Of a stretch of DNA of 40,807 nucleotides, positions 5,509 to 18,930 are shown one piece after another. The stretch is taken from contig CAJAHH010000075.1 in NCBI GenBank assembly GCA_903939515.1, forward strand, positions 1 through 40,807, read 5' to 3'. Both the position numbers and the translations under genes were made by a program. This DNA comes from an uncultured Verrucomicrobiota bacterium (GTDB lineage: Bacteria > Verrucomicrobiota > Verrucomicrobiia > Limisphaerales > UBA9464). Under the pieces are notes generated by a model that did no database searches, was not told the DNA's origin, and saw only the letters and a program-made list of their open reading frames with translations. Each line of letters begins with the position of its first letter. The first letter of the stretch is position 1.

Positions 5509-6465
5509 TTACTCCTTAACGTATTTGGCGTATTCCTCTAACGGAACACCAAGTTTTTTGGCAATCGCTACCTGACTTGGGGTCAGTTTCACGCTGCGGC
5601 GCGCTGTGTTAACTCCCGACGAGCGGGTTGCAGGAGCAACGGAATGCGCGGACCGTACTCTCTGTTGTTTTTGGGGCGCAGACGACGCATTTCCATCTTG
5701 GAACTTGTGAGGAAACGCTTCGCGGATACGCCTATCCAGTTCATCATAATACTCCTCGCTCTGAGGGTCAAATCGTTCCTTGTTGACCAACTGAGCGTGG
5801 ATGCCAAACACGGCATGTGTCATCGGCACATCTGAACCAAACCATGCGTTCTGCTCTGCCCACTCCTCGGCACGAGGATCAGGCTCGGACGCCTGTTGCT
5901 GCACCGGCTGCTGCTGTTGCAAGGCCTGTCGCTGCTGGGCCTGATATGCCGCAAGCTGTTCCTGCTGTTCACGCTGGGCTGCAGCCTGTTGCACCTGCCG
6001 CTGATCCATCATGATCGCTGTCAAACGCTCTTGCGCCTCAGTCTCCGTGTCAAAATCGCCTTCTTCACGGGCCTGACGGATCACCTGCTTCAACGCAGCG
6101 ATCTGAGTGTCAATCCGACCCTTCGCCTCGTTTAGCCGCTCAGCGTCAGTGTGGCGGAACTGCTGTTCCAGCTGGGTTGCGCGCTGCTGGACGTTCTTGG
6201 CGTACTCAATTGCCGCCTGCTCACGACGCTCCGTCTCTCGTAAACGCGCTGTCAGCTTCTCAATGCGCTTACGAACACCGGAACTGTACTCATCCAAGTC
6301 CTTGGCATGCTGCTTTTGCTCTTGAACCGGCTCCGGTTGCTCAATTTCTACCTCAGGAGCTTGCGGGGCATCCGCCAAGACAGCATCAGAGCCGTCTTCG
6401 TTCATTTCAATCGTGGCTGGACTTTCGTCGTCGCCAATACTGAACTCTAGTTGTTCATTTGACAT
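5509..6465 (-). CDS. Putative capsid scaffolding protein
   Basis: 318 residues. It has an acidic N-terminus (residues 1-55), a long predicted coiled coil from about 60 to 190 with a Gln-rich stretch (QQRQALQQQQPVQQQ), and a more folded part with AEEWAEQNAWFGSDVPMTHA. It ends in a basic, lysine-containing C-terminal helix (LTPSQVAIAKKLGVPLEEY). Acidic head, coiled coil and basic capsid-binding tail are the usual layout of phage scaffolds, which guide shell assembly and then leave. Position between portal and capsid genes agrees. Confidence 0.75.
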   Translation of the reverse strand: MSNEQLEFSIGDDESPATIEMNEDGSDAVLADAPQAPEVEIEQPEPVQEQKQHAKDLDEYSSGVRKRIEKLTARLRETERREQAAIEYAKNVQQRATQLEQQFRHTDAERLNEAKGRIDTQIAALKQVIRQAREEGDFDTETEAQERLTAIMMDQRQVQQAAAQREQQEQLAAYQAQQRQALQQQQPVQQQASEPDPRAEEWAEQNAWFGSDVPMTHAVFGIHAQLVNKERFDPQSEEYYDELDRRIREAFPHKFQDGNASSAPQKQQRVRSAHSVAPATRSSGVNTARRSVKLTPSQVAIAKKLGVPLEEYAKYVKE

Positions 6466-6476
6466 GTGTTTCTCCT

Positions 6477-6956
6477 TTAGAGCATGTGGACAATGTCTTC
6501 GGGATTGGCAATCGTCGCCAAAACCTCGTCATCATTGATAAGGCGTATCTCGCCACCCTCAATCGGGATGCGCGAACCCGCATAGCGACCGAAAACAATC
6601 CAATCCCCCGGCTTGCACCACGGGCCGTCTGGAAACTTGCTCTCGTCGCAGTACGCCAACGGACCTACCTCAAGCACATACGCGCAGGTAGTCGCTAGTT
6701 GCGTCTTTTTCTGCGTCTCCTCCGCTATCGCAATGCCGCCCTTCGTCACTCGGGCCCCGCGATAAGGCAAAAGAGAAATACGCCAGCCCGTCGGACGCGG
6801 GAGATGGTCGCGAACGCTCTCGTTCAGCTTCACCTCATCCAACTGGCCTTCATCGTTGAAGACATCGTCGATGGTTGGGGCCCTATTCTGCTGCTGCTCC
6901 AACCACTTGCGCTCCAAAGCAGTCAAGTTGTCTTGCTTCTCTTCTACGGCTTCCAT
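6477..6956 (-). CDS. GroES-like co-chaperonin
   Basis: 159 residues: an N-terminal extension of about 50 residues followed by a Cpn10/GroES-like domain. Diagnostic parts are PTGWRISLLPY at the domain start, TKGGIAIAEETQKKTQ in the place of the mobile loop, AYVLEVGP, KPGDWIVFGRYAGSRI, and EIRLINDDEVLATI near the end. Such phage co-chaperonins cap the host GroEL ring to fold capsid proteins, as T4 gp31 does. Its location in the head operon, beside scaffold and capsid genes, supports that use. The start is ATG at 6956. Confidence 0.82.
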   Translation of the reverse strand: MEAVEEKQDNLTALERKWLEQQQNRAPTIDDVFNDEGQLDEVKLNESVRDHLPRPTGWRISLLPYRGARVTKGGIAIAEETQKKTQLATTCAYVLEVGPLAYCDESKFPDGPWCKPGDWIVFGRYAGSRIPIEGGEIRLINDDEVLATIANPEDIVHML

Positions 6957-6973
6957 GCAGTCCTCCTTAGGGG

Positions 6974-7162
6974 TTAGTCCATCTCACTAAACTTCTTGAG
7001 GCGTTCTTTCATAACGTCCTCAACCAAGTTCAAGCCTTCCAGACGGCCCATCAGGAAACGATACCGCTCCATAGAAGTCACCGAGCCATTCAACACCATA
7101 GCTTCAGTGTCAGACCTCAATGTTCGCAGGTCCTTTAGAACTGCTTCCGCAAATTCCAGCAT
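6974..7162 (-). CDS. Small helical protein of unknown function
   Basis: 62 residues, entirely helical by pattern (EFAEAVLKDLRTLRSDTEAM, later MERYRFLMGRLEGLNLVEDV). It has no membrane segment or motif that I can name. It is co-transcribed between the DUF6496-like gene and the GroES-like gene. The start is ATG at 7162, behind GGAGATTTACC. A dimeric coiled-coil assembly factor is one possibility. Confidence 0.65.
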   Translation of the reverse strand: MLEFAEAVLKDLRTLRSDTEAMVLNGSVTSMERYRFLMGRLEGLNLVEDVMKERLKKFSEMD

Positions 7163-7180
7163 GGTAAATCTCCATGAGAG

Positions 7181-7204
7181 CAGACGGTTCTAAGCTACCG
7201 TCTG
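7181..7204 (-). other. Hairpin upstream of the 62-aa gene
   Basis: CAGACGGT (7181-7188) pairs with ACCGTCTG (7197-7204) around an 8-nt loop. It lies in the 55-bp gap between the DUF6496-like and 62-aa genes. There is no T-run, so it looks more like an RNA processing or stability element than a terminator. Confidence 0.45.
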
Positions 7205-7217
7205 GAAAGCTTGAAAA

Positions 7218-7478
7218 TCAATAAATCTTAACCGGGTTATTCCCGTCTCTTTTCTTCACAATCATCGCAGGGCCCTGCACACCCTTCATCGCACCGCCCT
7301 TAGCCATCTTCTTCGACTTGCCCGCAGTCGTCAAAGCAATCGCAACCGCTTGTTTGACCGCTGCCTTCTTGCCCTTAGGCTTACTCGTGCCTATCGAGCC
7401 ACTCTTCTTAAATTTGCCAACCATCTCGCTGATATTGCCCGAGATCGTCTTCTGGCTAGAACCTTTTTTAAGAGGCAT
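7218..7478 (-). CDS. DUF6496-like small basic protein
   Basis: 86 residues when started at the ATG at 7478, which follows AGGAGCGAGAA. A longer reading frame begins inside the portal gene, but the [20 protein letters not shown] opening is the family's usual N-terminus. The later [20 protein letters not shown] is also characteristic of DUF6496-type phage proteins. [11 protein letters not shown] segment follows, linking it to the other KGG proteins here. It overlaps the portal stop by 11 bp. Function is unknown. Confidence 0.75.
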
Positions 7479-9834
7479 TTCTCGCTCCTTGCTGTTGACT
7501 GACTTGGTTGAGACGCTCCCGCGCCACATCCGCTCGTAACATCGCAATATTCTCCTGCGACTGCACACGTGCCATGTTAGCGCGCTGCACTTCCGCTGCC
7601 TTTTGCTTCTCTACTTCCAACTTAGCGCCCTCAATCTGGATACGCTGGGTATCTGCCTGCGCACGTTGCTGGATTTCTGCCTCCTTCAACTGCACCACAG
7701 GGTCAGGACCCTCACCCGCCAGCTGCGATTGGATGCCACGCAGCTCCATCATGCCCTTGGCAACCTCCAACGCGATCATGCCCTCCTTCTGGATCGGCGA
7801 AATCATCTTGTCAGGATCAGCACCATACTCCGAGAACAACTGCGCCTCAACAATCTCTTCTGCCTTCTTGCGCACGTGCTCCAAAATATGCTTCTGCAGC
7901 GTCATCGCCGCCTGCGGATTTGCTTGCAGCATCGGCGACATGCCCATGATCAAATGCGACAAGATATGCGCGTCATGCTGCTGACCAGAGAACGCCTTTA
8001 GCTCCATCTGATCCAATACATCCGCGTTTTCCTGCGCCGGGTCCTTCGGCATCTGCGTATTCTGCGGTCTCAAGATGCCATCAATGTCTCTGACGTTCAT
8101 CGCCGCATACACACGGTAGTACGCCTCGTACATGTTGTGCATCATCGGCGCTGTCTGCGCCAATTGCAACTGCGTTTGCGCCAAAGTGATGCGCTGGGCC
8201 ACCGAGAAGATGTTCGGATCAGCCACAGGAAGTACCGCCACCAGCTGATTGAAGTCATGCTTCTTAATTTTTCTCGACGCACCCGGCACCTCATACGGAT
8301 ATTCGTCCGGCAGATACTTACCAAAGCCCTTGGCAAGCAGTTGGAACTCCATCTTCTGCGAATAATGCAGGCGCTTGTGGATCGCCGACATCACCATCGA
8401 GCCTTTTTCCATCAACGCAATGGTCGTACCCACCGCCGCCATCTGATTGCCTTCACCCACCTGCATGTCAGCAATCGATGCCAAGCGTTTGCCCGCATCC
8501 ACCACAAAACCCAGCAGCGCAAACAACGTCTGGCTCGGTTCTTTGTACGGCAGAGGCAACAACGACGCCGTCAACTCCGCACCACCCGCATCAATGTCAC
8601 GCCATTCGCCCGGCTGGATCGGATTATCGCTATCCGCGATCCGTGCACCCTTCGCTTTGAAGCCCGCAGGCAGATTCGAGAGCGTTCCCGCATCCAACAA
8701 CTGCCGCATCGCCATCGTAGCCGTCTTCGACAAGCCACCAATCAGATGCACAAAGCCCAAACCATACGCGCCCAGACCCTCAACCAGCACGTAATGCACA
8801 AACGCAGGAATGCGAAGCTTTAAATCGTCATCTTCTTCCCAATTTCGACGCACACCGACCACGCGACCGCTGACTTCTTCAATCGTAATCAAGAACGGCA
8901 GCTTAATTCCCGTCGGCTCACCATCCTCATCGACATCTTCAAAGCCCGGCACGTCATAATCGACGTGCATCTCAAGCAAAAACATCTCTTCGGCTTCGTC
9001 AGAAGGCGTTAAACCCGTCTGTTTGTCTATCGCCTGCGAAATATCGCTCGCTGTCGGGTCAAAAGCCTCCGGCTGCAAGTCCAAATCAAGGTACTCACCC
9101 GCCAAAACACGCTTCTTGAACTCGTTCGTGGACATCGCCACACGATGCGTGACCCGTGAGCATTGGCTCATGACGCTTGAGCCGTAGTACGGGATGTACA
9201 AATCGTCCGCCAAGACCAACTTGGACACCATCCGACCCAAATAACGGTCGTAATACACCTTCTTGAACACCGATCCACCATAACCAAGGTAGAAAAGCGC
9301 CTGATCAAACTCCGGTGTGTACTCCTCCATCACCGTCGTCAGCTGGTAATTCATGAAATCTTGCACACGCGAGGCCTGCTGCGCCTTGTCCAAGGTCTCC
9401 TTACCCACAATCTGCGTCCTAACAGGACCACTGGACGGCATCAACTCCTTCATCGCCTGTGCTTGGAACTGCACAATCGCCTCAGTCAGCATCGGATGCA
9501 CTGCCCCCGCCGCACCACGGAAAGGCTTGGTCCGCTCTTCAAGCTTCAAGCCCAACAGATCAAGGCCCTTGGAGTACATCGTCTCCCAGTCCGACCTCGA
9601 CGACTTGTCCGCCTCGTACAACGCCTGCAATGTCTGCGACATCTCCGACAGATCGTCCGCGCTAATAACCTCGGCTAAGTTGTCATAGAAGTCCACTTCC
9701 GCAGCTTCGTCCTCGCCCATCTCAACCGTCGCCCCACCATCCTCTTCCAAGATGATTTCGATTTCAGGCATGCCTGCCGCTTCAACCTCCACGGACAAGG
9801 GCTTTTCGTTTTCCCCGAGCTTATCTACTGGCAT
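7468..9834 (-). CDS. Portal protein (P22-like)
   Basis: 788 residues. The portal forms the twelve-subunit ring at one head vertex through which DNA enters and leaves. Supporting features: an acidic N-terminal 70 residues; the core motif with [21 protein letters not shown] near residue 95; a region around residue 195 with [15 protein letters not shown]; a conserved [14 protein letters not shown]; and a long helical, Gln-rich C-terminus from about 600 (barrel/coiled coil). Length and composition fit P22-like portals better than lambda or HK97 types. It lies downstream of the large terminase and the 846-aa gene. The start is ATG at 9834, behind GAGGAATAACC. Confidence 0.85.
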
Positions 9835-12417: not shown

Positions 12418-13884
12418 CTAATAATACTCATACACAAGCGCATCGCTTCCCTCTTCCTCGACATCGTCCGTCTCCAAGGTCACAAAGTTGCCCTGCCTAA
12501 AGCGCATCATGGCCTGTGTTGTCGAATCGACCATGTCGTCGTTATCCCCATTCGGGAACGCCGCACACTCCTCAATCAACTCCTCCGCCCACTCCGTCTC
12601 AGGTGCCCAGACCATCCGGCTCTCGAACAACGGAGCCACCGCATGCGCCCGGCTTATCTTGTCCTGACCCGCGCGCCGTCCACCGGGGTTGTACATCGTC
12701 ACCGGTATGCCCACGCGCCGCAGCTCCTGCTGCAAGGTCACGCCCGTGGCCTTGGCCTCGATCAAGACGTTGTCAGGATTCCAATAGCTGTACTGCTCCT
12801 TGGCAATACGCTTCAATTCCGGGAAGTCCCACCGACCCTTCACGACGTCCAACAAAATAATGTTCGGCCCCGAGTCCGCGTTCGGCACAAACACACCCCA
12901 CGTTGTAATCACAGAGAAGTCCGCCGTCTCTTTCTTGCTGTACGCCGTGTCATAACTCTGGATTAAGTACTCACACTTGGGCGGCGAGTTGTGCTCCCAA
13001 CGCTGCCACCACTCGCGCTTTAATATCGCACCCTCTTCCGCCGTCGGCTGCTGCTGCCACTGCGCCTGCCACTTGCGAAGGCCAATCGACATCTTGACCT
13101 TCTCTAACTCCTCAAGCTTCCAATACTCCGGCCATAACGGGGCGTTGTTCGGCAGGATCGCCGGGAACTCCAATATCTCCCACTGGTCCGACTTTAACTG
13201 GCCCTGCTGCTTCAATAACCTCCCCGACAGATCATCGGTCCGCCAACGGGTGTTAATGATGATGATCGCGCCATCTGGCTGCAAACGCTGACGAGGACCC
13301 GACGTATACCACTCCCACGTGCCCTCCATCGCGGTGTCCGACAACGCATCCTGTTCGTCCAAGATGTCGTCCAAAATAACAACATTACCGCCACGGCCCG
13401 TCATCGCGCCGCCCTTACCAATAAAGAAGGCTTCCCCACCAGCGTTCGTGTCCCACCGGCCCGCCGCCTTGCTGTCAGCCGAGAGCATGAACTCAGGGAA
13501 CAACTCCCGGTACTTCTCGTCCGCCACAAGGTTTCGAATCATCCGGCCAAAACGCTGCGCTAACTCCGCCGTGTGCGAACCGACAATGAGTTTCGAATCA
13601 GGCTTCCGGCCCATCAGGTACGCAGGGAACAGATAACTGCCCATCTGCGACTTGCCATGCCGAGGAGGCATCGCGATCATCAAACGCTTGCACTTGCCCG
13701 CGACCACACGGTCCAAGGCCGCAGCGATACGGCGATGGTGCTCACCGACAATCATCTCGGGCCACACGTAGCGACAGAAATCCAAGAAGGAGGACGTTGC
13801 ACGTTCCTGCGCTTCAAGCTGCAAGAGTCGAAGTTCTAGCTTGATACGTTCCGATTCGACATCTTGTTGGTTTGCTAAGTCCAT
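12418..13884 (-). CDS. terL: Terminase large subunit (ATPase and nuclease)
   Basis: 488 residues from the ATG at 13884. The frame also allows TTG at 13902; neither has a clear ribosome site. The motor packages DNA into the head. Residue numbers are from the ATG. The ATPase has Walker A with PPRHGKS at 73-79, Walker B VVILDD at 168-173, and a coupling-type motif INTRW near 210. The RNase H-like nuclease has Asp in QSYDTAY (D312), Glu in LIEAKATG (E376), and Asp in NDDMVDS (D450, D453). It is separated from the small subunit by an unusual 4-kb GC-rich cassette. Confidence 0.93.
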   Translation of the reverse strand: MDLANQQDVESERIKLELRLLQLEAQERATSSFLDFCRYVWPEMIVGEHHRRIAAALDRVVAGKCKRLMIAMPPRHGKSQMGSYLFPAYLMGRKPDSKLIVGSHTAELAQRFGRMIRNLVADEKYRELFPEFMLSADSKAAGRWDTNAGGEAFFIGKGGAMTGRGGNVVILDDILDEQDALSDTAMEGTWEWYTSGPRQRLQPDGAIIIINTRWRTDDLSGRLLKQQGQLKSDQWEILEFPAILPNNAPLWPEYWKLEELEKVKMSIGLRKWQAQWQQQPTAEEGAILKREWWQRWEHNSPPKCEYLIQSYDTAYSKKETADFSVITTWGVFVPNADSGPNIILLDVVKGRWDFPELKRIAKEQYSYWNPDNVLIEAKATGVTLQQELRRVGIPVTMYNPGGRRAGQDKISRAHAVAPLFESRMVWAPETEWAEELIEECAAFPNGDNDDMVDSTTQAMMRFRQGNFVTLETDDVEEEGSDALVYEYY

Positions 13885-14098
13885 AGGTTTTGAATTTTGC
13901 AAAAATTTTTAGGGCTATCGATTTTGCAAACAATAGGGGGTGGTTTCACGTGGAACATACCCTAAAACGATTCCATTGGTAACTGTTTGTGTGAAATCGG
14001 GCCTAGGCGTTCGCCAGCCAGACAGGGGGCCCAAAATCCGGGGTGGGTGCTCACTTACGCGAGATACCGCATGAATAGGTGCCGGGACTCGGCCCCCG

Positions 14099-14130
14099 GT
14101 CCACGGCCCGGGGCGCGCGGTCCACGGCCC
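14099..14130. repeat. GGTCCACGGCCC direct repeat pair
   Basis: Copies at 14099-14110 and 14119-14130, spaced by exactly 20 bp start to start. Shorter CACGGCCC copies follow at several places up to about 14310. Confidence 0.8.
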
Positions 14131-14198
14131 ACGGCCCGGCATGCGCGGCCAGCTGGGCATGCATCACGCGTCACGGCCCCCGGCCAGCTGGGCGCTGG

Positions 14199-14237
14199 GT
14201 GTTTGTGATCCCTCATCACAAACCGGATCACAAACAC
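14199..14237. repeat. Perfect 13-bp inverted repeat with iterated ATCACAAAC
   Basis: GTGTTTGTGATCC (14199-14211) is the exact reverse complement of GGATCACAAACAC (14225-14237). The 13-nt loop holds a further direct copy of ATCACAAAC starting at 14215, so three copies of the nonamer lie within 39 bp. It can form a cruciform or RNA hairpin and looks like a protein-binding site. Confidence 0.8.
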
Positions 14238-14488
14238 AAACACGCGGCCAGCTGGGCGCTACAGCTGGGCGAATCAATCCCGGCCAGCTGGGCACGGCCC
14301 ACGGCCCACGGAGCGGCCAGCGGGGCCCACGGGCCACGCGCTGGGGCCGTACGTTCAGGGATCAGGGACCAAGGCCCGGGTGGCCCGGTTTGGCGGCCGG
14401 GCGCGCTGGGCGTCCGGGGCCAGCTGGGTTATTGCCTTTATAGACACACGATAATGTACAGCGCTGGCCGGGCCCGGTTTACACGGGC

Positions 14489-14516
14489 GAAAAAAAACCG
14501 CCCCGAAGGGCGGTCC
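14489..14516 (-). terminator. Rho-independent terminator after the DUF932-like gene
   Basis: On the minus strand ACCGCCC, loop TTCG, GGGCGGT, then a run of eight T. Plus-strand positions are 14497-14503 and 14508-14514. It lies about 37 bp beyond the DUF932-like stop and would end cassette transcripts before the repeat region. Confidence 0.88.
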
Positions 14517-14552
14517 GCGCGGCCCAGCTGGGCCCCGCTCAGGGAAAACGAA

Positions 14553-15638
14553 TCACGCTACAAGGTCCAACAGCTCGCCCGCTTGCGTCTCGAATTCAAC
14601 GCGGTCAGCGGTCCACTGAATCGAACGGGCATACGCCGTGGCGCCCGTTACAGCGTCCCAGATTGTTTCGATGGGGCGCCCCTCATCAATCACGTGGGCG
14701 TGTTCCACACGCTGGGCCACACGCGGCCCGAAACGATTCGCGAGAAACTTGCTCACGTCCGGGATTCGCTCGCGCTGGGCCGCTTGTAGCACGTTCAGCG
14801 TGTTCGATTCGCTCGCTTGCGAGTAAGCGAGCAACGCGGGCGCTACTTCTTCAATGAAGCGGTCCGGCGCGCTGGCCGTATGCCGAAGCGATATTTCTTC
14901 GAGCTCATGAGCGCCCCATACAATACGATTCGCGCAAACAAAATCGAACAAAAAGGTTTTAACGCGCAGGGCCCCGCCGCCCACTTCGGAATTCGTGACA
15001 AAAAACCCCCGGGCCAGCGTCCCGGTCTCGCCGTCCCGGCGGCCCGGTAGCTCAATGCGGTTTTTCTCATCGGCGAGAAAAACGAACATATCGCGGTCAC
15101 CTGCGTACAGCGTTGTGTTCTCGCGGTCCACTTCCACGGCCCGGCCCCATACGCCCGGGACGCGAAAATCGCCCGTCACGCCGTCCCCAAAGCGGTCAAT
15201 CAACGCGGCAATCACGTCATCATTCCACACGCGCCCGTAGCGCGGGCCCGTCATAGCGCGAATTACTGATTCGCCGTTGCGCGTTAACAGTACGCCCACA
15301 TCCTGCGCGTCCCGTTCGTGTTGCATGCCCCAGTTGATACAGTCCGCCGCTACCGGGGCCGGGAGTGTGCGCAGATACCCAGCGGGCGCGCCGATCAGGC
15401 CCGCCGCTTGGCCGAACGCCCAATGCGAAGGGGCAAACCCGTGCCCGTTCGGACCTTCAATCAAAATGCCGGAATTGTCATCCGTTGGAACGGCCCGCAA
15501 CGCGCGCGAGCTCACCACGGCGGCGCGCGAAATAGCGCGCTGGGCCGCTTGCTGAGCATGCATTTCCGTAAGCGAAATAAACCGCTCTTCGGCGGGACGT
15601 GTAGACCATTGACGCGAAGCTTGCATAAGTGTTGACAT
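14553..15638 (-). CDS. DUF932-like protein
   Basis: 361 residues from the ATG at 15638, chosen because it follows the cassette's ACAGGGAGAAAATT ribosome site; the frame extends further upstream without one. The stretch GFFVTNSEVGGGALRVKTFL, followed by FDFVCANRIVWGA, is typical of DUF932 phage/plasmid-like proteins. The N-terminal 60 residues are basic and helical. The family occurs widely on phages and plasmids, with no established biochemical role. It is the last gene of the GC-rich cassette and is followed by a strong terminator. Base use is more GC-rich than in the replication or early genes. Confidence 0.78.
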   Translation of the reverse strand: MSTLMQASRQWSTRPAEERFISLTEMHAQQAAQRAISRAAVVSSRALRAVPTDDNSGILIEGPNGHGFAPSHWAFGQAAGLIGAPAGYLRTLPAPVAADCINWGMQHERDAQDVGVLLTRNGESVIRAMTGPRYGRVWNDDVIAALIDRFGDGVTGDFRVPGVWGRAVEVDRENTTLYAGDRDMFVFLADEKNRIELPGRRDGETGTLARGFFVTNSEVGGGALRVKTFLFDFVCANRIVWGAHELEEISLRHTASAPDRFIEEVAPALLAYSQASESNTLNVLQAAQRERIPDVSKFLANRFGPRVAQRVEHAHVIDEGRPIETIWDAVTGATAYARSIQWTADRVEFETQAGELLDLVA

Positions 15639-15701
15639 AATTTTCTCCCTGTATTGTGAAAAGTGAAACATTCGCGGGCGGTTTGCCCGCCCGGAAAGTA
15701 T
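15639..15701 (-). promoter_or_regulatory. Cassette leader element, copy A (before the DUF932-like gene)
   Basis: The minus strand reads TTTCCGGGCGGGC, a hairpin (GCGGGC 15674-15679 with GCCCGC 15685-15690), a GTTTCAC box, then ATACAGGGAGAAA directly before the ATG. The same parts recur at three other cassette genes. Confidence 0.7.
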
Positions 15702-15708
15702 AAGCGAA

Positions 15709-16002
15709 TTAATCAGAATTACAAACCAATTTATTCCGGGCCCGCTCCGGGGTATATCGACTGTAATTCCGGACGCGAGAATATCGCTCACGCGCTACGC
15801 GTTCGCGGAAGGTCAACGGGATACCGGCCAGCTGGGCCGCATGCATTAACACGCCCAGATCACAATCTTCTTCAAGATAAGCGAAACCGTCCCGCATATA
15901 ACTGTAATAGCTAATCGAATCGAGCAAATTCAAGCGGTCAAGTAAGCGAATCGAAACTTTCGCCCACGCGTGGCCCGGGTCCGAAATAATGTCAAGCTTC
16001 AT
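15709..16002 (-). CDS. Small conserved phage protein with SDPGHAW motif
   Basis: 97 residues beginning MKLDIISDPGHAWAKVSIRL and continuing with YMRDGFAYLEEDCDLGVLM. This is a recognisable small family in phage and plasmid accessory regions, often near DUF932-like genes, with no known function. No membrane segment. The start is ATG at 16002, with GAGGGC upstream. It overlaps the preceding 62-aa gene by 11 bp, so the two are coupled. A CCAGCTGGGC copy lies within it at 15828. Confidence 0.7.
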   Translation of the reverse strand: MKLDIISDPGHAWAKVSIRLLDRLNLLDSISYYSYMRDGFAYLEEDCDLGVLMHAAQLAGIPLTFRERVARERYSRVRNYSRYTPERARNKLVCNSD

Positions 16003-16190: not shown

Positions 16191-16610
16191 TCAGATATCA
16201 ATTGAAATGCTGGCATCTTTCAACACCTCTTTTACCGCTTCCTCAAGGTCGAATTCGTCATCAAAGTATTCTTTGATTTTATGGCCCACGTCGATATGGT
16301 CCTCAATATTCGCGTTGAGATAATCGCCCACGCGTGTGTCGAGCTCAGCGTCCGCCCACTTTTTAATTCGCTGATCGATCAGCTGATCGAGGGCCAGCTG
16401 GGCGGGCGCGGTTTGTTCGGCCCGCTGGGCGTCCGCTTTTTCAATAGCGTTCGCGATGGTGTTCATCACTACGCACAGCGCGGTATAACAATGGGCCTTA
16501 TCTGGGGACGCTGAAAAAACCATGTCGGCATAATTCAACGCGTCCGCGATGTCGTCTCCACGGTCCGCGAATAAATTGTTTCTCAGTGAAGCGATAATTG
16601 ATTGACTCAT
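16191..16610 (-). CDS. Cassette protein of unknown function, 139 aa
   Basis: 139 residues from the ATG at 16610, preceded by the cassette leader ACAGGGAGAAAGTC. Helical and acidic, with a central Ala-rich segment (KADAQRAEQTAPAQLALDQL) and an acidic C-terminus (FDDEFDLEEAVKEVLKDAS). No motif that I can name. Upstream lies copy B of the cassette leader, so it is probably independently regulated. Confidence 0.65.
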   Translation of the reverse strand: MSQSIIASLRNNLFADRGDDIADALNYADMVFSASPDKAHCYTALCVVMNTIANAIEKADAQRAEQTAPAQLALDQLIDQRIKKWADAELDTRVGDYLNANIEDHIDVGHKIKEYFDDEFDLEEAVKEVLKDASISIDI

Positions 16611-16668
16611 GACTTTCTCCCTGTATTGAGTGAAACAACGCGGGACCAAGTGCCCGCCCGGAAATTAT
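16611..16668 (-). promoter_or_regulatory. Cassette leader element, copy B
   Basis: The minus strand reads TAATTTCCGGGCGGGC, where TAA is the stop of the upstream DUF7227-like gene. It then has an inverted pair GCGGG/CCCGC, GTTTCACTC and ATACAGGGAGAAA before the ATG at 16610. Confidence 0.7.
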
Positions 16669-17354
16669 AGGGCCTTACTTTCAAATTGCAAGCTTATTTT
16701 TTCGGCCCGCTTTGATCCCGTCCCGTGCGCGATAAAACCGACAATTGAGGGCCGCTGAGCACGTGAGCACAACTGACAATCCGCGCAGCTGATATCGTCC
16801 CGGAGCTGGGCCGGGCACGTCACCACGGGACGGCCCGCCGGGGTTTTCGTAAGTGAGGGCGCGCCGGGCGGAAGTAGCGTCACCACGGGCCCAGCGTCCA
16901 ATGCCGCCAGCTGGTCCGCGTGTGCGAGATTATTCGCCGATAAATTGATAGTAAATCCGCCCGCGTTCGCTTCACGGATCAACGCTAAATTTTCAGCGCT
17001 GGCCGGTTTGTGCGTATACGTGAAGCCGCGTTTCCCAGCGTTCGCCTTGACTAACATGCGCAACGCGTCCGGATTGATTGTCTCATTCAGGCCCGGCAAG
17101 TCGCCCGCCTGATTATGCCGCCACAGCTGGCCCACTGGTAAAGCTTCGATTGATTCGCAGAACTCGGCCCAGTGCATGCCACGCTGGCCCTCAGTAACAG
17201 CGCGCCAGTGCAACGCAAGCGGCCCGCCGTCCGCATAACATCCGTTTTTCTTAAGCGGGCACGAATCCGGGCATGATTTCGCGCTGGTAGTAGATACCGG
17301 TATCGGGCCGGTTTTCTTATTTGAGCTCTTGATTGTCAAGTGAACGGTTTTCAA
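16665..17354 (-). CDS. DUF7227-like cysteine-rich phage protein
   Basis: 229 residues from a TTG start at 17354, which follows the cassette ribosome site AGGGAGAAAATT. The family is recognised by SAKSCPDSCPLKKNGCYADG near residue 24, GPLALHWRAV, LWRHNQAGDLPG, GFTYTHK, GFTINLSANNLAHADQ and the late CADCQLC. Eight or more cysteines in clusters (CPDSC, GCY, CP, CADCQLC) suggest metal or Fe-S binding, which is an inference. Function is unknown, but the family is common in phages of many hosts. Copy C of the leader precedes it. Confidence 0.75.
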   Translation of the reverse strand: MKTVHLTIKSSNKKTGPIPVSTTSAKSCPDSCPLKKNGCYADGGPLALHWRAVTEGQRGMHWAEFCESIEALPVGQLWRHNQAGDLPGLNETINPDALRMLVKANAGKRGFTYTHKPASAENLALIREANAGGFTINLSANNLAHADQLAALDAGPVVTLLPPGAPSLTKTPAGRPVVTCPAQLRDDISCADCQLCSRAQRPSIVGFIAHGTGSKRAEKISLQFESKAL

Positions 17355-17841: not shown

Positions 17842-18260
17842 GCACGCTCATTCGGCAATTGCAATACCCTCGCGTGAAATTCTTCCCAGTCTATTTTTGC
17901 GAGGGGCCAGCGCGCGACACAATCCGCCATAATCCCCCGCTTCGATATGTCGAGCACTTGCGCGCCCGTGAACAAAAGTAACTCCGGCGCGCGAACCTTC
18001 GTGTTCACTTCTACCACGACGAAGGTCGGGCATCCCAGCGCCGCATGTTTCATATGAAAGGCGTACTGGTGAGGACTCAGGTTAATCTTCAGGCCCGCGC
18101 TAACTACCTTCAATTCGATTAGAACGAAATGCGAGTTCGGCAGGGCCACCATCAGGTCCGGAATCCCCAAGTTCACCCGCGTCTCGATCCGCGTCATGTG
18201 AACTGTCGTCCAATTCCGCTTTAATCTGTCGAAAAGCCGCTGCTCGCTTTTTCGTGACAA
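17838..18260 (-). CDS. VRR-NUC-like PD-(D/E)XK nuclease
   Basis: 140 residues from a TTG start at 18260, chosen because GAGGAGG lies 8 bases upstream and the domain begins at once (SEQRLFDRLKRNW). The catalytic pattern is visible: RIETRVNLGIPDLMVAL with D35, then FVLIELK with E49 and K51, and SPHQYAFH with Q65. This matches VRR-NUC-type nucleases that cut branched or free-ended DNA. It overlaps the end of the small terminase gene by 161 bp in another frame. It may process DNA for packaging or recombination; that is an inference. Confidence 0.8.
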   Translation of the reverse strand: MSRKSEQRLFDRLKRNWTTVHMTRIETRVNLGIPDLMVALPNSHFVLIELKVVSAGLKINLSPHQYAFHMKHAALGCPTFVVVEVNTKVRAPELLLFTGAQVLDISKRGIMADCVARWPLAKIDWEEFHARVLQLPNERA

Positions 18261-18930
18261 GTGCTGGTTCCTCCTCGCCTAACGGCAAATCGTCCAAAAA
18301 ATCCCCCGGCTCAAATTTTACTTCGGGCTCCACTGGTACGGGCTCTTCCTCGATTTCTTTTATTTCCATCTCTAAAACGGTTGTCGGGGGCGGTCCGCCA
18401 TAAATCTGCTTGATCTCCTGCAGCTTGCGGATCACTTCCTCTTTTGACATCGAGTCAATAGTGCCAATCCGCACTTCCTTGCGATCTACGTAAATCGTGC
18501 CCAGCGCCTGCCCACGGCGGTATTCCGCCTGTACAGCAGCAGACCACGCCCCGGCCTCTATAGCCTTATCACGGATCATCTGCAGGTCACGCATGTGCCG
18601 CTCGAAGGTCGTCCCAAACTTCTCCGCCAGTTCGTTTCTGAGCTCGTTTACGGCTGCGACGACATGCGGACTACGTGCAGGGTCTAAAAGCCGCTTAATG
18701 GCGTCTGTGGCCGCATTTGGCGTGTATCCAGCCCGTATAGCCGCTTCCGTCCGGGTCATGCTCCCATCACGGGTCACATACTCCTGAACAAAGGCCCACT
18801 CTTTTGGACTAAGCATCATCTGCTTGCCGCCTTTCCCCGGTTTAGGGGTGTTGGCTATCCGCTGTAACACATCTTCCGGCAGGCTAGGCATTTGCGCCAC
18901 GGTTCTAGTCTCCACCTTACGCTTAGTCAT
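18100..18930 (-). CDS. terS: Terminase small subunit
   Basis: 276 residues. The N-terminal domain (about 40-105) has SPKEWAFVQEYVTRDGSMTR followed by TEAAIRAGYTPNAATDAIKR, a helix-turn-helix of the kind used by small terminase subunits to bind the packaging site. A helical oligomerisation region follows (to about 160). The acidic Glu/Pro-rich stretch at 175-215 and the polar C-terminal tail are less conserved; the tail overlaps the nuclease gene by 161 bp. The start is ATG at 18930, overlapping the previous stop as ATGA. Confidence 0.8.
   Translation of the reverse strand: MTKRKVETRTVAQMPSLPEDVLQRIANTPKPGKGGKQMMLSPKEWAFVQEYVTRDGSMTRTEAAIRAGYTPNAATDAIKRLLDPARSPHVVAAVNELRNELAEKFGTTFERHMRDLQMIRDKAIEAGAWSAAVQAEYRRGQALGTIYVDRKEVRIGTIDSMSKEEVIRKLQEIKQIYGGPPPTTVLEMEIKEIEEEPVPVEPEVKFEPGDFLDDLPLGEEEPALVTKKRAAAFRQIKAELDDSSHDADRDAGELGDSGPDGGPAELAFRSNRIEGS

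Follow-up and report, generated by a model that had tools for sequence, protein, structure and literature searches.

Chromosomal parS, the site of the ParABS system at which ParB (Spo0J) acts, is described as a 16-bp palindrome with a bacterial consensus (PMC10197239); its GTTCCAC or GTTTCAC half-sites are bound by ParB proteins (PMC7022226), and the model of ParB as a clamp is treated as established (PMC12704722). The closest tested precedent for the hijacking of a parS system is SGI1, a mobile element with parS copies that uses the ParB of the parABS system of an IncC plasmid and is reported thereby to stabilize itself and to destabilize the plasmid (PMC10954446). The phage-plasmids P1 and N15 and cyanophage Mic1 also have a parS in the phage genome and, in the account given with Mic1, encode their own ParA and ParB (PMC7156551). 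In cells infected with an engineered lambda-parS phage, CFP-ParB was reported to gather on the infecting phage genomes in foci that grew with replication, and lysis followed normally (PMC13190303). Phages with their own parABS and this one engineered parS phage were described in the literature searched; no description of a natural phage that has a chromosomal-type parS but no parAB was found in this search, which was partial and is not proof of absence. As regards packaging, the pac sites of SPP1 and SF6 are described as direct repeats that lie next to the terminase genes, are not the same in these two relatives and span the start of terS, and the SF6 small terminase can replace that of SPP1 despite the differing pac repeats (PMC4737164).

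The locus described here resembles these systems in part. The window, by which we mean the whole stretch of DNA analysed, is the 40,807-base contig C75 of a MAG and holds terL (terminase large subunit, 12418–13884, minus strand; phrog_38, E 1.3e-111), a word array and a parS-type site on one contig. Between terL and the DUF932 protein gene (14553–15638, minus strand; PF06067 and phrog_1362, found in nine of 13 long records, window included), the two neighbours named in the earlier note, lies a non-coding spacer (13885–14552, minus strand) with a GC content of 0.64, which forms the late-operon leader and is found in the same place in relatives. The term 'sense' is used below for the direction of terL, i.e. 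the minus strand of the window. The gene order is that described for DSL-LC04 of the proposed ‘Dishuiviridae’ (PMC10611076), in which a related terL is also preceded by an array; unlike the window, the DSL-LC04 record is without the parS core. As in SPP1 and SF6, repeats lie by a terminase gene and differ between relatives, but here they precede terL, the terS gene is about 4 kb away and a pac role would be a proposal. The phage site is the same palindrome as chromosomal parS with the same half-sites, whereas it occurs without detectable parA or parB, is usually single and lies beside terL, not oriC. Like SGI1, these phages would use the ParB of another replicon; the plasmid target of SGI1 was established experimentally, whereas that of the phages would be the system of the chromosome. 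The parS sites of P1 and N15 are of different sequence. The Mic1 palindrome, as given in its description, also differs from the phage parS found here, and the present phages have no detectable ParA and ParB of their own, unlike P1, N15 and Mic1 (PMC7156551).

We put it at about even chances that the spacer is a control region of the late operon in which a pac-like array is combined with a loading site for host ParB. Such a region would head the terL–portal–capsid operon of a group of related environmental phages, the clade to which DSL-LC04 is akin.

The GC-rich, fast-evolving word array occupies 14083–14437 (minus strand; borders set by eye). Five exact copies of CCAGCTGGGC start at 14149, 14184, 14248, 14284 and 14524 of the plus strand (the first four at 14149–14158, 14184–14193, 14248–14257 and 14284–14293) and three near copies at 14261, 14317 and 14420; all fall, as had been stated, in less than 400 bp (14149–14533, 385 bp). 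The exact copies lie on the plus strand as stated in the earlier note, but the statement that all point in the plus direction rests on the flanking bases because the CAGCTG core is a palindrome. The last copy is palindromic over 12 bp (GCCCAGCTGGGC, 14522–14533) and lies beside a probable intrinsic terminator of DUF932, a GC stem followed by a T run (14490–14516, minus strand; by eye). The copies reported at 15828 and 16394 are present, in neighbouring genes outside the spacer. Words of the form CGTGGNCC point towards terL at 14098, 14119 and 14126 (14098–14133, minus strand) and at 14296, 14303, 14324 and 14331 (14296–14338, minus strand), and GGTCCACGGCCC starts at 14098 and 14119. An A+T-richer inverted repeat with 13-nt arms, GTGTTTGTGATCC/GGATCACAAACAC, was computed at 14199–14237, and resembling stems were seen by eye in some other lineages. 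Towards terL follow a conserved core (13989–14054, minus strand), which reads GCCTAGGCCCGATTTCACAC in the window and GGCTTTAGCCCGATTTCACAC in its common form among the relatives compared, a possible sigma70-like promoter (TTACCA-N17-TATGTT, 13954–13982, minus strand; by eye) and the parS-type palindrome GGTTTCACGTGGAACA (13942–13957), which the earlier note had missed and which the −10 box of the possible promoter overlaps, again by eye. Elsewhere in the window, promoter-like −10 boxes followed by TTTCCGGGCGGGC were noticed by eye ahead of early genes (15640–15710 and 16640–16690), and TTTCCGGGCGGGC is possibly a shared operator of these genes.

The excess of CCAGCTGGGC over chance was borne out in the window. 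When up to one mismatch was allowed on both strands, it holds 25 matches, several places being counted once per strand, whereas 100 dinucleotide shuffles held 3.27 on average and never more than 10. The word is not enriched in the whole bin of 4.7 Mb, where 26 exact matches compare with 23 of the reversed control; eight of these 26 fall in the window contig. Relatives were collected by terL and DUF932 protein searches of IMG/VR (best 80 loci each); 83 loci, several of which are copies of one contig, contained both genes, and the spacer was usually of higher G+C content than its locus. The earlier note had asked for conservation of the motif in relatives. CAGCTG is frequent in some lineages only, and two relatives with TerL 93–95% identical to that of the window (L015 and L016) have none and carry another word instead; other lineages use ACCWGG, CTCGAG/AGCTCG or CTCCCGG. 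The loci L013 and L015 are 96% identical in TerS and 96% identical in terL DNA, yet between them CAGCTG goes from nine copies to none and CTCCCGG from none to five in the 700 nt ahead of the terL leader motif. Since relatives with near-identical proteins swap words in this way, CCAGCTGGGC is not a conserved signal, and the suggestion of a binding array for this word itself is not supported (L014, L015, L016 and L097 have no CAGCTG there). The idea of a universal 7-nt repeat, suggested by inspection of some alignments by eye, was abandoned, as units of 9, 15, 23 or 27 nt, also counted by eye, occur in other lineages.

The description of the spacer as repeat-dense holds: in the window, 20.3% of its 8-mer positions hold a recurring word, compared with a mean of 3.8% and a maximum of 7.9% in 30 shuffles. 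Across 25 non-redundant spacers (each no longer than 1500 nt), repeated 8-mers make up 10–40%, their shuffles average 2–10% and same-length stretches of the loci average 3–13%. Single stretches outside the spacer reach the same level in some loci (0.209 in the window, about 12 kb beyond the terL start, 0.241 in LC04 and 0.433 in L072). Of the 13 long records, nine have their most repetitive stretch before terL and one (LC04) has its second most repetitive there; in the remaining three (L043, L030 and L081) the terL leader is outside the top four, with more repetitive stretches elsewhere. Sequence identity in the array is lower than that of the flanking genes in most close pairs; between the window and L011, which also has an inserted gene, it is 0.96 for terL, 0.93 for the core and 0.54 for the array with gaps counted (0.85 over aligned positions). 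Array and core precede terL in most relatives examined, though not in all, which agrees with the cis-acting non-coding region that had been proposed. L216 and L245 (TerL 78–79%) and L228 (66%) show no array within 900 nt upstream of terL. In a wider survey of 27 contigs taken from the first parS scan, 25 of which have at least 250 nt upstream of terL, several relatives at TerL 49–57% have arrays in which different words are repeated and CCGTGG is scarce; A+T-rich relatives have none.

What is kept while the words change is a direction. CCGTGG is present in all 25 spacers, 119 times in the sense and seven times in the antisense direction, so that it points towards terL; CGTGGNCC, missing in two of them (L057 and L147), is found 103 times in sense and once in antisense, against 5.8 and 3.3 in dinucleotide shuffles. 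Because the spacers share ancestry and tandem duplication keeps orientation, the ratio of 103 to 1 does not represent 103 independent events. Outside the spacers of the same loci CGTGGNCC is unbiased, with 17 sense and nine antisense copies on the side of terL and 29 and 35 on the opposite side. As regards a host motif of the Chi or KOPS type, the word is not enriched in the co-binned MAG (603/565 against 595/684 for the reversed control), which may not be the host. The array is an example of a DNA element that changes fast while its place stays mostly the same, and in which the constant part is the orientation and not the most visible word.

Oriented repeats near terminase genes are what is expected of a pac site, and we tentatively read the array, somewhat short of even confidence, as a pac mark for the small terminase, with CCAGCTGGGC as merely the filler word of this lineage. 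The gene for the small subunit (18100–18930, minus strand; PF03592) is the better candidate for the array reader because it is found in 12 of the 13 long records, window included; it is missing only in L067, an incomplete contig. The DUF932 protein was rejected as the reader: by tblastn it is missing in four of the 13 long records, which keep upstream repeats or words. An RNA element was not supported either. The window gave no Rfam match at gathering thresholds, and folding showed no sense preference (median z −2.3 for sense and −2.2 for antisense, the sense strand being lower in 14 of 25); both strands of the spacer give somewhat more stable folds than shuffled sequence, as is expected of palindromes. 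Restriction sites were considered as a further explanation: palindromes are avoided in several long relatives, and the array words are not consistently in line with this avoidance. The lineage-specific avoidance is itself strong, e.g. one CAGCTG seen and 30 expected in L079, and suggests past restriction pressure that differed between close phages.

It is quite possible, although we lean against it, that the array is a neutral by-product in which GC-rich words multiply by slippage and recombination where no coding constraint acts, and that only the core and parS matter. The wholesale swaps of words between close relatives (nine CAGCTG against none), the perfect tandem repeats of several periods seen by eye and the other repetitive stretches in these genomes would all fit this explanation, as would the absence of an array in A+T-rich relatives and in L216, L245 and L228. 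The contig L018 closes on itself as a circle of 63,628 bases with a self-overlap of 4,367 bases, and all four mismatches in this overlap are in the spacer. Against neutrality, all 25 spacers retain CCGTGG, mainly in one orientation, although their other words are exchanged, and repeats or words persist upstream in the four records without a found DUF932. Compact phages also seldom retain 400–700 nt of filler.

The parS-type site at 13942–13957 has two mismatches to TGTTTCACGTGAAACA and one to TGTTTCACGTGGAACA, and lies within two mismatches of the palindrome TGTTNCACGTGNAACA, to which many relatives match exactly. By itself the window site is within chance, as matches with three mismatches or fewer turned up in 21 of 100 shuffles, and its weight therefore comes from the relatives. 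In 1.83 Mb of related loci, a redundant set, 65 parS-like 16-mers (CACGTG core, up to two mismatches) were found: 55 at 22–190 nt before terL, six downstream and four without a usable terL. Such a 16-mer is present in 54 of 116 loci that have terL and more than 250 nt upstream, also in the redundant set. The variants have GTTTCAC or GTTCCAC halves and a free edge base. Of the 76 rows ascertained through terL, among them the window, 35 show the 14-mer core in the 400 nt upstream of terL and 41 do not. The core is spread over most deep TerL clades, and a TerL tree (FastTree) requires at least 15 parS changes, at least ten of which are forced by well supported branches. Anywhere in the record, it is carried by eight of 22 long related records, so parS is common but not universal.

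The position of the site varies. All six sites downstream of terL match exactly and fall within long ORFs (L036:3773, L153:13254, L140:8615 and 11522, L142:10183 and 12151); none of these four loci has a parS before terL (393 nt are available in L036), as if parS had left the spacer for a position inside a gene. The terL match of L142 is split into two pieces about 1 kb apart (6061–8535), which suggests an insertion inside terL and is the reason why the parS offsets of this locus differ between two counts. A small HNH-like ORF separates the core from terL in 14 loci, which represent 11 contigs and about six lineages, and none of these loci keeps parS; half-site remnants were seen by eye beside the ORF. 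The label comes from a CxxC and HH pattern, also by eye. A homing nuclease was not confirmed for this ORF, as no Pfam family reached the cutoff (HNH_5, E 0.19).

An exact search for TGTTTCACGTGAAACA in IMG/VR gave at least 120 stretches, compared with one and four for two control palindromes of the same composition; two of the four came from one contig with many copies. TGTTCCACGTGGAACA likewise gave at least 120 stretches. Both parS forms are therefore commoner in viral contigs than chance palindromes, with the reservation that some of the contigs may be bacterial. Among the 120 listed TGTTTCACGTGAAACA stretches, 35 have a terL relative (26–79% identity) and 41 share another gene with the window phage, 46 being related in either way; in 16 of 34 examined the core lies within 400 nt before terL, which is not a frequency because the stretches were chosen for having parS. 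The second scan gave 14 stretches with a terL relative among 118 listed, in six of which a site lies no more than 400 nt ahead of that gene. In phages whose TerL is only about 27% identical to that of the window, three to five exact TGTTTCACGTGAAACA sites, partly at the junctions of small genes, were noticed (L205:10535–11462, L178:2657–3444 and L214:240–961). Many copies of the control palindrome TGTTACACGTGTAACA are present in a single IMG/VR contig, 3300037423_000235 (L326, L329), where it is possibly another phage operator or centromere.

The question arises whether the GTTYCACGTGRAAC palindrome might be the operator of a phage repressor that merely resembles parS. We consider this improbable. 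The overlap of the window site with the possible −10 box would suit an operator, as would the five exact copies before terL, partly at gene junctions, in each of L205 and L178 (TerL near 27%). The variant halves match those described for chromosomal ParB half-sites (PMC7022226), which argues against it, as do the six exact copies inside ORFs; the CI-like gene of the window is found in only four of 13 long records. Also against an operator, the co-binned MAG (G000), which may not be the host, has GTTCCACGTGGAAC twice (contig C49:345 and 1143; L284, L285), just before and inside an mnmG/gidA-like gene named by eye from its translated start. This is a placement as expected near a chromosomal origin.

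Partition genes were searched for in the 22 related records: ParB_N (PF02195) and the ParA-like AAA_31 (PF13614) were found in none, and neither was a tyrosine integrase (PF00589), in searches in which the positive controls gave hits and many of the records were incomplete. Within these 22 records neither the own ParA and ParB genes of a phage-plasmid nor the tyrosine integrase of a temperate integrating phage were therefore seen; since many contigs are incomplete, the absence of ParB is not proven. ParB_N occurs in four of 50 long contigs of the first parS scan, three of them above the cutoff. A terL search of named genomes, aimed at the host, returned no relative. Because the phages seem to be without a ParB of their own, that of the host should load at the site, and we consider it rather probable from sequence comparison that host ParB loads on the phage parS. 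The behaviour of lambda-parS indicates that such loading is feasible and, as lysis followed normally, that it need not matter (PMC13190303).

Of named phages, the cultured pelagiphage HTVC027P has one GTTTCACGTGAAAC at 16413–16426, in the intergenic gap that separates gp31 from gp32, some 4 kb upstream of terL. With up to one mismatch, GTTYCACGTGRAAC was found in one of eight further named records, that of HTVC027P, and not in the other seven; neither of the two named records among the long related set has it. HTVC027P infects Pelagibacter sp. HTCC1062 and is described as obligately lytic (PMC12753301). If parS works there, prophage partition is not its likely use for this reason, and the positioning of DNA or the diversion of ParB would be likelier.

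It is unlikely that the spacer is the replication origin of the phage, with the oriented words as initiator or primase sites. The oriented repeats together with the A+T-richer stem would suit an origin, and a primase is found in 12 of the 13 long records, but the cumulative GC-skew minimum of the window is near 20 kb and no initiator gene was noticed beside the spacer; GC skew does change at terL, although this may follow gene content. The ends of contigs were also considered: among 78 contigs of relatives, 23 break off in the last 1 kb before terL and four in the first 1 kb after it. No end position is shared by these 23 contigs (36 to 976 nt before terL); some ends are in perfect repeats and others in the core, the leader or elsewhere, and we read them as probably assembly breaks in the main, not cos ends. 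A cohesive or terminally redundant genome end is very improbable despite this excess before terL, given the scatter of positions and the long contigs that run through the spacer (L013, L039, L056, L079, L081 and L129) or, in one case, wrap a 63.6-kb circle.

The proposed control region would have two working parts. The array, made of GC-rich words of fast turnover with CCGTGG(N)CC nearly always towards terL, would mark the DNA for packaging, and the small terminase would read it through DNA shape and loosely specified repeats. The chromosomal-type site at 13942–13957, which adjoins the possible terL promoter, would load host ParB, which would then form a closed CTP clamp and move by sliding along the late operon. 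The likeliest use would be to tie the phage DNA to the partition apparatus of the host or, at many copies, to draw ParB off the host origin; alternatively, the late promoter may be silenced or timed.

The wider proposal, to which we give even weight for and against, is that a large group of phages, at least one of which is described as obligately lytic, carries a working chromosome-type centromere, mostly at the start of the late operon. It would recruit host ParB to place or segregate the phage genomes or to strip the host origin, and would have been lost, regained, moved and displaced by the HNH-like gene. The findings suggest that viruses in this group tap the segregation machinery of their hosts. 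If this is true, HTVC027P and Pelagibacter sp. HTCC1062 would be a concrete cultured test system, parS scans of metagenomes will hit viruses, and phages would exploit chromosome segregation directly, a host process that is not usually listed among their targets.
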